Source: Aliikangiella coralliicola
Lineage (GTDB): Bacteria; Pseudomonadota; Gammaproteobacteria; Enterobacterales; Kangiellaceae
NCBI RefSeq assembly: GCF_007004725.1
Contig: NZ_ML660160.1
Span: forward strand, 682,001-746,000
Length of the DNA: 64,000 nt
Reading direction: 5' to 3'
The stretch's first letter is position 1. Each line of letters begins with the position of its first letter. Both the position numbers and the translations under genes were made by a program. The notes beneath the pieces are model-generated. The model searched no databases. It saw only the letters and a program-made list of their open reading frames with translations, and had not been told where the DNA came from. Below are positions 22,067 to 26,348 of the stretch, piece after piece.

Positions 22067-23953
22067 TTAGCGAACAATGGCTCGATCGCGACCCGAATTT
22101 TTGGCCTGGTAAAGTGCTAAATCGGCCCTGTGTATAATTGATTCAATGTCGTCGTTTATTTGTAAGGCGGTAACGCCAAGGCTGATAGTGACTGATTGAG
22201 CCATGGGGTTGACTATCGTTTCCGCTAGTGATTTTTTAATGCGGTTACAAACTTGTAGCGATTTTTCCGGATCAGTATGTGGAAAAATAAATAACCATTC
22301 TTCGCCGCCAATACGGCCAAAATTATCGTCAGATCGAAGATGTTGCTGGCATGTTTCTGCGAAATGTTTAAGGACTTTATCTCCGACGTGATGACCATAG
22401 CTATCATTAACTTTTTTAAAGTGATCCAAGTCAATTACACTGATTGTTAATGGGAATTGATAACGCTTTGCACGTTCGATTTCGTTGGTCAGTGTTTCGA
22501 AGATATGTCTTCGATTGGACGCGCCGGTCAATTCATCGGTGAGCGCAAGTTTCGTCATTTGTTTTTTTATACGAGTTTCCCGCCGGTAGGCATGTATTGA
22601 AAATAGTAATAATAATATGAGTAAAACGCCGACTAATAAGTGAAGCCTTTGTTTCGACTGTTGCTTTTCCAGCTCGAGTTGCTGGGCTCGGTTTTGCTCT
22701 TGTAACAGCGCGTTTTCTGTTTGCTGGTGTTCGAAATTAAAACGGTATGCCATCTCTTTTAAGTTTCGATCATTTTGATTTTTAAATGCCTTATATTGAA
22801 GTTGAATTGATTTCTGTTGTAAGCGGTAAGCTTGCTCATAATTTTGTGTGGCCGCAAAGTAGCGAGATTCGATAGCCGCTAATCGCGAATTGATAAGAGG
22901 ATTATCCTTAGTTTTTAAAATCTCTTTTGTTTTCGCAATGAGAGTGCTTACTCTATCGAGCTCATGAGTTTGTAATCCTAGTTGTGCCTGGAATGTAAAC
23001 AACTCAACTAACCAGTTATTGTCAGCATGCCGGAGGGCAATTTCTTGTGCAAGCTCCAGGTTGTCAAAAGTTTCTTTTATTTTATGTTGTTGGCTAGCGA
23101 TTTGCGCGAGTTGAAAGTAGGCTGAAATCAAACCATATTCGTTGTTGTACTTTTGCCCAATTTTAATTGTATTTAAAGTATGCTCTTGGGCTAACGCTAA
23201 TTTATTACTCGCTAAATAGTAACTACCCTTAGTGTATTCCAATATTCCTGAGTCATGTAACATTGGTCGTTGTTTAAATAAGGTTTCCGCTTCATCAAGA
23301 TATTCTCCGGCAGGTACAAGGCTGTTGGTATAGGCCGATGCGCGGGAAAGATAAATTAGCGAGATAAATGTTTTTCTCAACAATTGGTTTTTTTTACTTA
23401 TTTCATAAGCTTTATTATAACTATTGATAGCTTGAGTGATTGAACCTCTGTTTTGTGCGATACCGCCTTCGACCCATGCAAAATCAACCTGTAGATTTGG
23501 GTCGTTTAGTTCGCCACTACAAGTTTCCGCCAGGTTCTTTGCGTTGAACTCTTGATCAATGTCTGTTTTCGATGAAAGTATTTTATAATGAAAAATTTGA
23601 AGTAAGCAGCGTTTATAATCATCGCCCAATTGTTGAGCTAAAATTATTGATTCGTTTAATTCATCTTCTATGTCGAGCTTTCCAATTTCTGCTCGCGCCA
23701 ATATCATCTGATAGAGGAGTTCTAACTTTTCGTGATTTGAAGATACTTGCTTTATTTTGAGGGCCAACTCTTTATAAACTGCTACAGGATTAGTCCCTAA
23801 AGAATTCTCTATTTCAGAGTTTTTATGAGGAGCCGCCATGGCGTAGGTGAAGTGGCAGACGAAACATAATGCAATAGTTAATCTAAGGCAACTAATCGAG
23901 TGTCGAACTTTTTTATTTGCAAAGGAAATTTTCGGCGACCATACAACGAGCAC
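22067..23953 (-). CDS. TPR-containing membrane diguanylate cyclase (GGDEF)
   Basis: About 628 residues. An N-terminal hydrophobic segment (CLRLTIALCFVCHFTYAMA) exports a roughly 400-residue TPR-like helical sensor region (repeats such as AINSYNKAYEISKKNQL, ALAQEHTLNTIKIGQKY). A coiled coil and one membrane helix (LHLLVGVLLILLLLFSIHAYR) follow, then a cytosolic GGDEF domain. The signature reads GGEEW, with Trp for Phe, and an RxxD inhibitory site (RSDD) lies five residues before it, so c-di-GMP synthesis with product inhibition is expected. The start is uncertain: GTG 23953 follows GGAGG, a TTG at 23974 is also open, and both overlap the end of the CtlX gene, suggesting coupling. Confidence 0.85.
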   Translation of the reverse strand: MLVVWSPKISFANKKVRHSISCLRLTIALCFVCHFTYAMAAPHKNSEIENSLGTNPVAVYKELALKIKQVSSNHEKLELLYQMILARAEIGKLDIEDELNESIILAQQLGDDYKRCLLQIFHYKILSSKTDIDQEFNAKNLAETCSGELNDPNLQVDFAWVEGGIAQNRGSITQAINSYNKAYEISKKNQLLRKTFISLIYLSRASAYTNSLVPAGEYLDEAETLFKQRPMLHDSGILEYTKGSYYLASNKLALAQEHTLNTIKIGQKYNNEYGLISAYFQLAQIASQQHKIKETFDNLELAQEIALRHADNNWLVELFTFQAQLGLQTHELDRVSTLIAKTKEILKTKDNPLINSRLAAIESRYFAATQNYEQAYRLQQKSIQLQYKAFKNQNDRNLKEMAYRFNFEHQQTENALLQEQNRAQQLELEKQQSKQRLHLLVGVLLILLLLFSIHAYRRETRIKKQMTKLALTDELTGASNRRHIFETLTNEIERAKRYQFPLTISVIDLDHFKKVNDSYGHHVGDKVLKHFAETCQQHLRSDDNFGRIGGEEWLFIFPHTDPEKSLQVCNRIKKSLAETIVNPMAQSVTISLGVTALQINDDIESIIHRADLALYQAKNSGRDRAIVR

Positions 23954-24860
23954 TTCCACCTCCAATGTGTTCAATTGTCGGAATATCGCAAACTATGAGT
24001 TCGCCATGTTTTTCTAGTTGTTTTCGTTGGCTATTGCTAAAGCCAGAATGAGCGGATGAAGACATTATTATGCATGATTGTTGTTGTTTGTTTTTGACCT
24101 GAATGATGTTACCGCAAAAATTTTCAGTCATTTGTTGTTCTGAAATACTGATAAGATCTGTGACAGTGTCTGTTAACTGTAGCATCGAAGTACGATTGCT
24201 GCTAGATTCCTTCAGCACCGATTCTGCAATGACAGCAAAGGATTCCCCACAGGACATCAACACGTTGGTGTGATAAACCGGCTTTCCGCTAGCTGTCGAG
24301 GTTTCAAATGTCGATAGCTGGTATTGATATTTATCTGCAAACTGAATAAGCGCTGATTGATGACAGCGTTCTGACAAAGCCGCGAATACTTGGCCGGTTG
24401 GATGGTGGAATATAAGGCTGCCGGTTCCCTCCAAAAAAGAGTCACTGGTAAATTCCTGGCGTAAATCGATAACATTTTTGATTGTGTAACCTTTGCTTTT
24501 AAGACTATTTTGAAGCGGTTCTATCTGAATTTCGGCGCGACGATTAGGTGTTTTCATCGGATAAATAAAAATATTTCCATCTTCCCGAGTTGAAAACCAA
24601 TTATTGGGGAAAATAGCATCAGGTAATTTTTGTGTTGTTTGTTGCTTTTCTAAAATTAAAATCTCTATTCCGTGGGACTCTAATTGCTCGACCATTTGAG
24701 AAAATTCACCGAGCGCTTTCTGGGTGATTTCATTGGCTTGACTATCTACAGGTTTGTTTTGAAATTCGTTATCTTGCCCTGTTTGTTCGTTGTAGCCGAA
24801 ATCAGTGGGTCTAACCATTACCAACGAACTTGTAAGATGGGATTGCGTAAAGGTTGTCAT
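23913..24860 (-). CDS. ctlX: CtlX-type amidinohydrolase (arginine deiminase superfamily)
   Basis: A 315-residue cytosolic protein of the guanidino-group-modifying enzyme superfamily. It has PDAIFPNNWFST (substrate/Asp motif, about 82-93), FLEGTGSLIFH with the catalytic Glu, VYHTNVLMSCGESFAVI with the catalytic His, and a late Cys nucleophile in HIGGGSARCMVAENF (about 297-311). This set matches the CtlX/citrulline-utilisation hydrolase branch rather than ArcA or DDAH proper; the annotation of the exact reaction is uncertain. The gene is minus-strand and its end overlaps the diguanylate cyclase gene. Upstream it is separated from the gcvA promoter by a minus-strand terminator, so its own promoter must lie in 24861-24916 or it depends on read-through. 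Confidence 0.8.
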   Translation of the reverse strand: MTTFTQSHLTSSLVMVRPTDFGYNEQTGQDNEFQNKPVDSQANEITQKALGEFSQMVEQLESHGIEILILEKQQTTQKLPDAIFPNNWFSTREDGNIFIYPMKTPNRRAEIQIEPLQNSLKSKGYTIKNVIDLRQEFTSDSFLEGTGSLIFHHPTGQVFAALSERCHQSALIQFADKYQYQLSTFETSTASGKPVYHTNVLMSCGESFAVIAESVLKESSSNRTSMLQLTDTVTDLISISEQQMTENFCGNIIQVKNKQQQSCIIMSSSAHSGFSNSQRKQLEKHGELIVCDIPTIEHIGGGSARCMVAENFLCK

Positions 24861-24916: not shown

Positions 24917-24944
24917 AAAAAAAAAGCTTGCCGAAGCAAGCTTT
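24917..24944 (-). terminator. strong minus-strand intrinsic terminator with UUCG tetraloop
   Basis: Read on the minus strand: stem AAAGCTTGC, loop TTCG, stem GCAAGCTTT, then six more T (nine in total with the stem end). It is a perfect 9-bp stem with a C(UUCG)G tetraloop. It cannot serve ctlX, which starts downstream of it; it must end a transcript that starts further upstream on the minus strand. Confidence 0.9.
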
Positions 24945-25356
24945 ACTAGTAATTTGCTGTGAAATATAGGACCAAAAAGGGGTAGGAGGCCACAGCATTC
25001 ACTAATAAACTCTGTTGGGACAGAAACAAAAAACAACTCTCAAAACAGTTCAACTTAAAACTGTGTTCTTGCTAATTCGCTATATAGAGCGGCTTAACAA
25101 GCGTGGTATGGGCTAATCATACCGTTGAGGCTATGCCTCAAATTCATGACTAAGACCTGATTAAGGAAAAACTCAACAATCCAATCGGAATGCTTGCTTT
25201 CTCAGTCATTCGTGTAAATTTCAACACTCACCTGCTTACTGGAAACATTAATTCAGATATCTCACTTTGCATCAAAGTGATTAATCCAAAAATACTACGA
25301 ACAACCAAAGTGGTATCGTTCAATTAGTACTTTGAAGTTCTTTAGACTCTGAACTT
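24917..25356 (-). ncRNA. putative structured non-coding RNA divergent from gcvA
   Basis: A promoter-to-terminator unit of about 440 nt on the minus strand without a credible protein gene. It begins at a near-consensus sigma-70 promoter (25364-25392) and ends at the UUCG terminator at 24917. Visible stems in RNA sense are CACUUUG/CAAAGUG near 25262-25278, GAGGC/GCCUC near 25126-25140, and GGUAUG/CAUACC near 25103-25123. GU-rich single-strand-looking stretches occur near 25299, 25165 and 25025 (for example GUUGUUUUUUGUUUCUG). Divergence from gcvA is the arrangement of the small RNA GcvB in enteric bacteria, but this unit is about twice as long and I see no firm GcvB sequence match. Alternatives are a decayed rRNA-operon leader/trailer (the promoter has an rrn-like TCGCCCC discriminator) or a leader RNA. 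Confidence 0.6.
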
Positions 25357-25363
25357 GGGGCGA

Positions 25364-25392
25364 ACTATACTTATCAAATTGTACCTTTTCAA
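25364..25392 (-). promoter_or_regulatory. near-consensus sigma-70 promoter (minus strand)
   Basis: On the minus strand TTGAAA (25392-25387), a 17-bp spacer, then TATAGT (25369-25364): five of six matches in each box. The discriminator TCGCCCC is GC-rich, as in stringently controlled stable-RNA promoters. Transcription would start at about 25356 and run toward the UUCG terminator. Confidence 0.75.
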
Positions 25393-25436
25393 ACGATCAT
25401 TTATAATGATTCGCATTAGAAAAACTAATCCATTAG
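25379..25436 (+). promoter_or_regulatory. gcvA promoter region with CTAAT boxes
   Basis: A perfect -10 (TATAAT, 25402-25407) has a weak -35 (TTGTAC, 25379-25384) 17 bp upstream, overlapping the divergent promoter. Downstream lie CTAAT-type pentamers: ATTAG 25415-25419, CTAAT 25425-25429 and ATTAG 25432-25436; the last two form CTAAT-CC-ATTAG. CTAAT is the core described for Escherichia coli GcvA sites, so autoregulation is likely. Confidence 0.6.
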
Positions 25437-25445
25437 CGAGCCACA

Positions 25446-26348
25446 ATGGGGAAAAGACTACCACCACTAAAAAGCCTGCGGGCTTTTGAGGCCGCGGCGC
25501 GGCATTTAAGTTTTACCAAAGCAGCGGATGAACTTTTTGTGACTCAGGCAGCTGTTAGTCATCAAATAAAATCGTTAGAAGAATTTTTGGGCGTTCCGCT
25601 ATTTGTCAGGCGAAATAGAAAGCTATTGTTAACCGATGAAGGCCAGAATTATTGGCCGAAAATTCGGGACATTTTTGAGACTTTAAGTAGTGCAACAGAG
25701 CAAATAAAGGCTCAAGGTGCCAGCGGTGCTTTAACAGTTAGCGTTGTGCCGACATTTGCGACCGTCTGGCTAGTGCCCAGACTTTCTCATTTTAGCCAGA
25801 TTTACCCTGAGATTGAGGTTCGCCTGAAGGCTAGCGATGACACGGTCGATTTTGTCAGGGAAGATGTTGATGTCGCTATTTACTATGATACCGGTGATTA
25901 TCCCGGAGTTCATTCCGTGACCTTGTTGAGTGAGCGACTCACACCACTCTGTTCTCCAGCGCTGCTTGAAGGAAATAAGCCTCTCAAATCGCCGCAAGAT
26001 TTGAAACATCATACTTTGTTACATGATGGGAGTACCGGAGATTGGCGACGCTGGTTAAAATTTGCGGGAGTTAAGGGAATTAATCTGAATCATGGGCCCG
26101 TTTTTAGCCATACCTCGATGGTTCAGCAGGCGGCGATTTATGGACAAGGTATCGCGATGGGGCATTTGGTGCTTTCGCAAGCAGATGTTCAGGCGGGGCG
26201 CCTGGTTCGTCCTTTTGAGCTGATGATGGAAAGTGACTTTTCCTATGACATTGTTTGCCCTAAGGAATCTGCCGAAAGACCAAAAATCAAGGCATTTACT
26301 GACTGGTTGTTGCAGACAGTGCGGCAGGAGAGTGGGAATCTTATGTAA
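25446..26348 (+). CDS. gcvA: GcvA-type LysR transcriptional regulator
   Basis: A 300-residue LysR regulator closely following the GcvA pattern. The N-terminal helix-turn-helix region reads LPPLKSLRAFEAAARHLSFT and ELFVTQAAVSHQIKSLE (about 4-50), then LFVRRNRKLLLTDEGQ. The effector domain contains GALTVSVVPTFATVWLVPRL, DVDVAIYYDTGDYPGVH, LLHDGSTGDWRRWL and GPVFSHTSMVQQAAIYGQGIAMGH, all GcvA-like. In enteric bacteria GcvA controls the glycine-cleavage operon and the small RNA GcvB. Here the gcv genes are not in the window, but a divergent RNA-like unit and CTAAT boxes lie directly upstream. The ATG at 25446 has only a weak ribosome site (GCGAG). Confidence 0.88.
   Translation: MGKRLPPLKSLRAFEAAARHLSFTKAADELFVTQAAVSHQIKSLEEFLGVPLFVRRNRKLLLTDEGQNYWPKIRDIFETLSSATEQIKAQGASGALTVSVVPTFATVWLVPRLSHFSQIYPEIEVRLKASDDTVDFVREDVDVAIYYDTGDYPGVHSVTLLSERLTPLCSPALLEGNKPLKSPQDLKHHTLLHDGSTGDWRRWLKFAGVKGINLNHGPVFSHTSMVQQAAIYGQGIAMGHLVLSQADVQAGRLVRPFELMMESDFSYDIVCPKESAERPKIKAFTDWLLQTVRQESGNLM

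Follow-up and report, generated by a model that had tools for sequence, protein, structure and literature searches.

The window, by which we mean the whole 64-kb stretch of Aliikangiella coralliicola DNA that was analysed, contains a gap of 585 bp between gcvA and a ctlX-like gene, with a predicted RNA unit on the minus strand of that gap (Table 1). gcvA and this unit are arranged as a divergent pair under LysR control. The regulator gene had been called gcvA in the original prediction, which was made from the letters of the window, and its protein family match bears this out. The ctlX-like protein scored just below the cut-off of NCBIfam model NF046062; by eye, a later Met ahead of VRPTDF may be its true start.

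Table 1. Coordinates of the features in and around the gap between gcvA and ctlX
Feature	Position in window	Strand	Evidence
gcvA, LysR-type regulator	25446..26348	+	NF008352 424.8 bits, cut-off 288
Additional CTAAT core CTAATGGATTAG, also using the ATTAG of the palindrome	25425..25436	.	read from sequence
Palindrome ATTAGTTTTTCTAAT, putative GcvA/LysR-type site	25415..25429	.	ATTAG-N5-CTAAT
TATAAT, probable -10 box of gcvA	25402..25407	+	read from sequence
-35 box TTGAAA of predicted RNA promoter	25387..25392	-	promoter scan; end of conserved block CATTATAAATGATCGTTTGAA
-10 box TATAGT of predicted RNA promoter	25364..25369	-	promoter scan
Predicted noncoding RNA, ~440 nt, predicted start to terminator T-run	24918..25356	-	promoter/terminator scan, fold
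Variable 5' and middle part, genus-level hairpins	25024..25356	-	without similarity to relatives' ORF region
Conserved 3' module, 107 nt	24917..25023	-	model R1 120 bits (a training sequence); fold z -4.81
Hairpin 1, CUGU-CCCA-ACAG	25012..25023	-	alignment of relatives
Outer helix AUUAGU/ACUAGU	25006-25001 with 24950-24945	-	95.6% of cells paired
Inner helix GCUGUG/CACAGC	24996-24991 with 24961-24956	-	79.3% of cells paired
Apical loop GCCUCCUACCCCUUUUUGGUCCUAUAUUU, candidate pairing region	24962..24990	-	conserved in alignments
Intrinsic terminator AAAGCUUGC-UUCG-GCAAGCUUU	24923..24944	-	terminator scan; 96.4% of cells paired
ctlX-like hydrolase, next gene past terminator	23913..24860	-	NF046062 324.1 bits, cut-off 334

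Promoter, terminator and body of the predicted RNA

The minus-strand promoter that had been described, TTGAAA and TATAGT with a spacer of 17 nt, is present, and its -35 box adjoins the plus-strand TATAAT. By scan alone this promoter was no more than chance would give (2 promoter-like sites found in 1.1 kb vs 2.4 ± 1.6 in shuffles). However, a block of approximately 42 nt, from the palindrome into the -35 box, was 85-98% identical between the window and 7/7 Kangiellaceae loci that bear an open reading frame (ORF) in the corresponding transcript, and TATAGT or a near variant could be read downstream of the block in loci of the genus. We consider the promoter credible despite its chance-level scan because this block is conserved in relatives; the RNA would then start at 25356, as placed from the promoter position.

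Three CTAAT cores ahead of gcvA had also been noted, and they are there as the palindrome plus one further core. The palindrome, which is a likely binding site for GcvA, is centred approximately 66 nt ahead of the predicted RNA start. Exact ATTAG-N5-CTAAT was found in 92/188 gcvA-upstream regions, a count that includes duplicates and outgroups, and 21 nt lay between the start of the site and an ATTATAA block in 51 of the 57 regions having both. At the sequence level, a divergent gcvA with upstream GcvA-type sites is found here as in the gcvB layout. The exact 15-bp site occurs in 2 copies in the A. coralliicola genome, the second with no glycine-cleavage gene among ORFs of at least 90 aa in the 3 kb examined around it, and 15-mers with up to 2 mismatches were not in excess in the genome (102 vs 108 for the control).

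A UUCG-tetraloop terminator approximately 440 nt after the promoter was also confirmed. It has 9 pairs and a T-run of 9, of which 3 are inside the stem, and its helix showed two-sided changes at 8/8 pairs in the alignment of relatives; the scan found 2 terminator-like sites vs 1.0 ± 0.9 expected. The whole 440-nt strand folded at -131 kcal/mol compared to -98.4 ± 5.9 for shuffled sequences (z -5.57), with 0/100 shuffles equally low, in keeping with the prediction of a structured RNA. The longest ORF on the RNA strand is 41 aa with a TTG start and is absent from relatives, so the call that the unit holds no credible ORF also stands. A 531-bp query found no second copy of the unit in the 7.0 Mb assembly (best other match E 0.011, a terminator). 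The proposal that the unit could be a remnant of an rRNA-operon leader or trailer was not upheld, since neither this search nor Rfam on the 64 kb met any such resemblance.

Upstream of the 3' module, structure prediction on whole RNAs from five members of the genus gave 72 pairs, 18 of them with two-sided changes, and a summed covariation term of +0.46 kcal/mol, which gives weak covariation support to the predicted hairpins common to these members. A U-rich GAGAGUUGUUUUUUGUUU stretch occurs in the RNAs of the genus.

The conserved 3' module

In a search of 60 relatives' genomes, members of the genus matched both ends of the query, namely the block ahead of the start and the last ~135 nt. The 3' piece matched at E 2.6e-50 to 6.9e-17 in 5/6 other genus genomes; the sixth (G002) matched the 5' piece, and its module was found by covariance model at 44.5 bits, with a loop that is no longer C-rich. 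Among the 29 relatives' loci of the first search, gcvA was divergent in 27 and ctlX was the next gene in 18. Across Kangiellaceae (family f1), the promoter-to-terminator unit is found divergent from gcvA. Its conserved parts are the block with the GcvA site and promoter and the last 107 nt; the middle is not conserved.

The module is present without an ORF in Aliikangiella and genera g3 and g5, and with an ORF in Pleionea (g6), g4 and g2. When 7 ORF-bearing and 15 ORF-less Kangiellaceae loci were compared, the promoter block and the 3' end aligned (E down to 1.8e-21), but between the two sets no alignment covered the ORF region. At E <= 0.01 some ORF-bearing/ORF-less pairs failed to align at the 3' end; for the window against the 7 ORF-bearing loci, the block aligned in 7/7 and the 3' end in 5/7. 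No remnant of the ORF was detectable in the ORF-less Kangiellaceae loci (best tblastn E 0.31). Its persistence in loci that lack the ORF means that the module does more than serve the ORF.

From 5' to 3' the module consists of a CUGU hairpin, which some relatives lack, an outer helix of the form AUUAG(C/U)...(G/A)CUA(A/G)U, an inner helix, a C-rich loop and the terminator. Both the outer and the inner helix had two-sided changes at 6/6 pairs. The C-rich stretch of the apical loop (CCUCC, CCUACCCC) falls at 24989-24979 and resembles an anti-Shine-Dalgarno sequence, and unpaired parts of the loop were invariant across the 15 rows of alignment A2. One member of the genus, L014, has kept the helices and largely lost the C-rich loop.

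Covariance model R1 (107 positions, 27 pairs) was built on a 15-sequence alignment. Outside this training set it matched at the expected place in L015, L020, L021 and L014 (44.5-59 bits), L032 (38.3 bits) and L033-L036 (33.8-37.1 bits). Background matches reached 30.8 bits in a 152-kb search and 41.9 bits in whole genomes, so the weaker matches rest on position and structure. Across the order, 182/295 genomes gave a match at E <= 0.05, mostly terminators; the best outside the family scored 40.8-41.9 bits (G108, G282, G166) and others reached 36, and gcvA was absent beside the top out-of-family matches in those loci examined. Scores were 29.7-38.8 bits in g5 and g2, 20.9-32.0 bits in families f13 and f14, 19.1 bits in L031 and 20.2 bits in L029 (family f4). 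The g5, g2, f13 and f14 modules are not distinguishable by score within a whole genome, and the modules of f1, f13 and f14 were accepted on their position beside gcvA and their common structure.

The original prediction had suggested aligning the same gap in relatives for covarying stems, and the module does covary. In 35 aligned matches to the model, 91.1% of cells were paired and two-sided changes occurred at 25/27 pairs vs 14.5 ± 1.8 in shuffles, in an alignment that is fitted to the model and so favours structure, and with related rows, which can exceed shuffles. The covariation score was 0.453 compared to 0.172 ± 0.010 for shuffled alignments (0/500) and at most 0.097 with the partner slid. 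In this alignment (A5) the L012 row is an antisense artefact and four more rows fit poorly; with these five removed there were still 25/27 pairs with two-sided changes and 91.3% of cells paired. The 15 training rows alone had two-sided changes at 13/27 pairs. Six single modules, the window's included, were also folded independently of the model (z -3.67 to -6.43); all six took up this nested architecture and placed the C-rich stretch in the apical loop. These data show that the 3' module is a conserved structure.

Relation to GcvB and possible function

GcvB represses amino-acid and peptide uptake genes in an Hfq-dependent manner. The RNA of the window had been taken for a GcvB-like but longer, diverged RNA, to be checked with Rfam covariance models including RF00022, and that search returned no match above cut-off. 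At gathering thresholds Rfam gave nothing in the 64-kb window or in the loci of 20 relatives, and at E <= 10 the region gave ten matches, all far under gathering scores and none of them GcvB. RF00022 did not exceed its 42-bit cut-off in the window, the 20 relatives' loci, the A. coralliicola genome or the sampled Kangiellaceae genomes, one of which reached 27.4 bits. With strict filters that lose weak matches, 45/197 genomes of the order had RF00022 over the cut-off, none of them Kangiellaceae. All 30 of the RF00022 loci fetched have gcvA adjoining GcvB. Excerpts of PMC3536696 describe a conserved single-stranded GU-rich R1 seed in GcvB; tested as the motif seen in the fetched GcvB loci, it was present in 30/30 of these and absent from the scanned Kangiellaceae loci. 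Homology of the 3' loop to GcvB, suspected by eye and from weak model matches, was rejected, as the conserved loop went beyond shuffles (p <= 0.05) in 1 of 39 GcvB-type RNAs, and there at a different place.

By the RF00022 and R1 motif tests, then, the RNA of the window is not GcvB, yet as read from the sequence it occupies the gcvB locus and shares the promoter layout of gcvB; the GcvB-like description holds for locus and promoter layout and fails for sequence. Both RNAs are divergent from gcvA, with similar promoter blocks and CTAAT sites, and end in an intrinsic terminator. They differ in length (~200 nt for GcvB vs ~440 nt), and the conserved part of the window RNA is a C-rich loop module whose relatives' transcripts carry an ORF. 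A true GcvB by descent, with its R1 seed lost or no longer recognisable, is an unlikely explanation. The shared locus, the orthologous gcvA, the similar promoter block and the constant company of GcvB and gcvA speak for it, as does a weak alignment of model R1 on GcvB 3' ends (15.9-25.5 bits in 6 loci); however, those bits are within the range of unrelated terminators, the loop was no closer than shuffles in 38/39 GcvB-type RNAs, and neither RF00022 nor the seed motif was found in Kangiellaceae as described above.

We are moderately confident that the unit encodes a GcvA-controlled noncoding RNA of approximately 440 nt ending in a conserved 107-nt base-pairing module, and the best reading is that the RNA acts in trans, with this 3' module as the working part. 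At the level of sequence the unit has the features of a base-pairing sRNA (its own promoter, a structured body, an exposed conserved loop and a U-run terminator) and may work like a GcvA-controlled sRNA. In E. coli, gcvB is activated by GcvA, which also represses its own gene; glycine exerts its effect via GcvR (PMC3536696). By analogy, the window RNA should rise with glycine: the site, its spacing and the gene order suggest that GcvA at ATTAG-N5-CTAAT would switch the divergent promoter by glycine as it does for gcvB. The 3' end of the transcript would fold into hairpin 1, two nested stems and the terminator, as covariation supports. The C-rich loop reads complementary to Shine-Dalgarno sequences, and the exposed CCUCCUACCCC loop could pair with the ribosome-binding sites of target mRNAs. 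Hfq would probably bind at the terminator U-run; an hfq gene is present in the genome (102.5 bits). Searches for targets used one crude pattern, GGGTAGGA-N(2-14)-ATG, which gave 46 matches vs 52 for the reversed control in seven genus genomes, and a longer GGGTAGGAGG form, which gave 1 match in these seven and none in the A. coralliicola genome.

Quite unlikely is that the module only stabilises the RNA, as a structured part of a 3' UTR or terminator region, and has no action in trans. That it adjoins the terminator and that the target searches gave none would fit such a role; its presence without an ORF does not, and the reading is further disfavoured because the invariance of parts of the unpaired loop in the 15 A2 rows would be unexpected there. 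It is distinctly improbable that the unit acts in cis on ctlX, as a leader or attenuator in which the terminator is the switch. In the window ctlX starts 62 nt past the terminator stem, and it lies downstream in 12/17 ORF-less Kangiellaceae loci (the window's included), but the unit persists in L012, L014, L015, L020 and L021, where ctlX was not found in the stretches examined. Because 5/17 ORF-less loci show the unit in this way, it does not depend on ctlX; the terminator stem is, moreover, kept by compensatory changes, and casual inspection noticed no alternative antiterminator. That the transcript is the mRNA of an unrecognised tiny peptide is very unlikely, for although relatives encode small exported proteins in the corresponding transcript, the ATG in TTAGTCATGGATTTGAGG opens ORFs of 2-34 codons without common sequence in five genus loci, and conservation of the module tracks helices. 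The RNA at this gcvB locus is conserved and structured, lacks a conserved ORF and is probably noncoding. As judged by sequence searches, its family has no counterpart in Rfam 15, and it is a new variant of the gcvA/gcvB arrangement.

Small exported proteins and the history of the locus

In g4, Pleionea and g2, an ORF of 93-97 codons that begins like a signal peptide occupies the transcript between the common promoter block and the common 3' module. The ratio dN/dS was 0.24-0.58 in g4 (10 pairs), 0.11-0.19 in Paraglaciecola (6 pairs), 0.18-0.39 in Aliiglaciecola (3 pairs) and 0.30-0.89 in Colwellia (21 pairs); judged by these values, the small ORFs of relatives are coding. A wider survey of gcvA-upstream regions (50 genomes of the order and 80 named loci) found comparable small signal-peptide-like ORFs next to gcvA in Alteromonadaceae, Colwelliaceae, Shewanella and others, and GcvB-motif RNAs beside gcvA in other families. 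Neither was recognised in a set of loci that includes L103, L109, L131, L134-L138, L140, L170 and L179; in L134-L138 and L140 (family f20 and part of f25) the RNA divergent from gcvA seems to be lost or different.

The small proteins are alike in size, signal peptide and place, and often end in [ASTG][DE] (52/66 in hand-picked groups; 62/90 in an unfiltered heuristic set that includes false ORFs and duplicates). None matched at cut-off in Pfam (14 tried) or NCBIfam (5 tried). A single family for all of them was set aside because profile comparison gave it no support: no two groups exceeded 7.2% probability over the mature parts or 56.6% over the full length, the latter value being that of the Alteromonas-like with the Shewanella-like group, and with L032 set aside the Kangiellaceae group stayed <4% with every other group.

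Several loci differ in their layout. In L104-L106 and L110 (families f6 and f7) only ~30-70 nt separate, by eye, the ORF stop from the terminator stem or T-run, and the 3' module seems to be missing, so a regulatory RNA part, if any, may sit in the 5' UTR. L122 (G091) has a module-like structure with a CCCUCC loop ~390 nt past the ORF stop and ~995-1111 nt from gcvA; the stretch between stop and structure is unexplained. In L171, L217, L219 and L220, which are alphaproteobacterial or unplaced, the gene facing the gcvA-like LysR gene encodes a small protein whose end resembles DUF1127, and the proteins of L217 and L219 matched DUF1127 (36.3 and 34.6 bits; cut-off 23.3). CcaF1 of Rhodobacter is a DUF1127 protein, and the CcsR RNAs have CCUCC-type loops, like the module of the window.

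A GcvA tree, built by quick search with SH-aLRT support on 112 rows chosen by hand, comprised 51 rows with an ORF, 31 with the GcvB motif, 17 ORF-less with the module, 3 with DUF1127 and 10 others. On it two changes account for the ORF-less rows: 12 of them form a clade of the window genus and its sister genus g3 (support 99), and the other 5 form genus g5 (support 85), with genomes of 2.3-2.9 Mb. Some labels were assigned manually: L143, L147 and 15 Kangiellaceae loci were called ORF-less, and nine loci were called other. A short motif decided the GcvB labels, and L035 was labelled ORF-less because its heuristic ORF overlaps the terminator. Rows were taken from 13/30 RF00022 loci and 33/67 of the named loci L161-L227; L148-L160 were left out as duplicates and L021 and L034 as near-copies.

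Parsimony was run on a second GcvA tree made by a careful method. At equal costs, an ancestor of the order with an ORF needed 6 steps, one with GcvB 6 and an ORF-less one 7. An ORF ancestor was cheapest when ORF gain cost twice loss (6 vs 9 and 10), and a GcvB ancestor when loss cost twice gain (8 vs 9 and 10); parsimony by itself does not settle which way the change went. For the ancestor of Kangiellaceae the ORF and ORF-less states tied at 2, and we infer that ORF loss is favoured because the neighbouring f13, f14 and f4 all have the ORF. The tree is a gene tree, and 34 of its 109 forks are weak. In Pleionea and two sister genera the module would be the 3' UTR of a small exported-protein mRNA, and the RNA of the window would most simply be that mRNA minus its ORF with the RNA function kept; it probably descends from a small-protein mRNA after loss of the ORF. 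More tentatively, and with less than even confidence, the gcvB locus may ancestrally have encoded a small exported protein under GcvA control, and ORF loss may have made sRNAs from it repeatedly: twice in Kangiellaceae (Aliikangiella with its sister genus, and g5), with the 3' UTR module kept, and separately in the GcvB lineages, so that GcvB would itself descend from a small-protein mRNA.

Parts of this arrangement have parallels, here taken from excerpts of the sources. CpxQ, derived from the 3' UTR of cpxP (PMC9438474), likewise places its module at an mRNA 3' end, as in the ORF-bearing relatives; it differs in that the window genus and two other genera have no parent ORF, so that the whole transcript would be noncoding. 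CcsR1-4 of Rhodobacter sphaeroides (PMC8625941) are sRNAs from the 3' UTR of a small-protein mRNA, ccaF1, but are alphaproteobacterial and induced by oxidative stress, with another protein and structure. VcdRP, a dual-function RNA of Vibrio cholerae (PMC8672173), combines a small ORF and a regulatory RNA in one transcript, whereas in the present case coding and noncoding versions are split between genera. Among the matches listed in a literature search that left subscription journals mostly outside, there was no small protein divergent from gcvA and no Kangiellaceae sRNA.

The locus adds small exported proteins that lack a Pfam match over cut-off among those tested. The origin of bacterial sRNAs is an open question, and living lineages show four states of one locus, which is marked by gcvA and its site: a small exported-protein mRNA, the same kind of mRNA ending in a structured 3' module, that module with no ORF, and GcvB. 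With these four states, a path from mRNA to sRNA could be tested by swapping parts between relatives, and the locus hints at how protein genes and regulatory-RNA genes may turn into one another.
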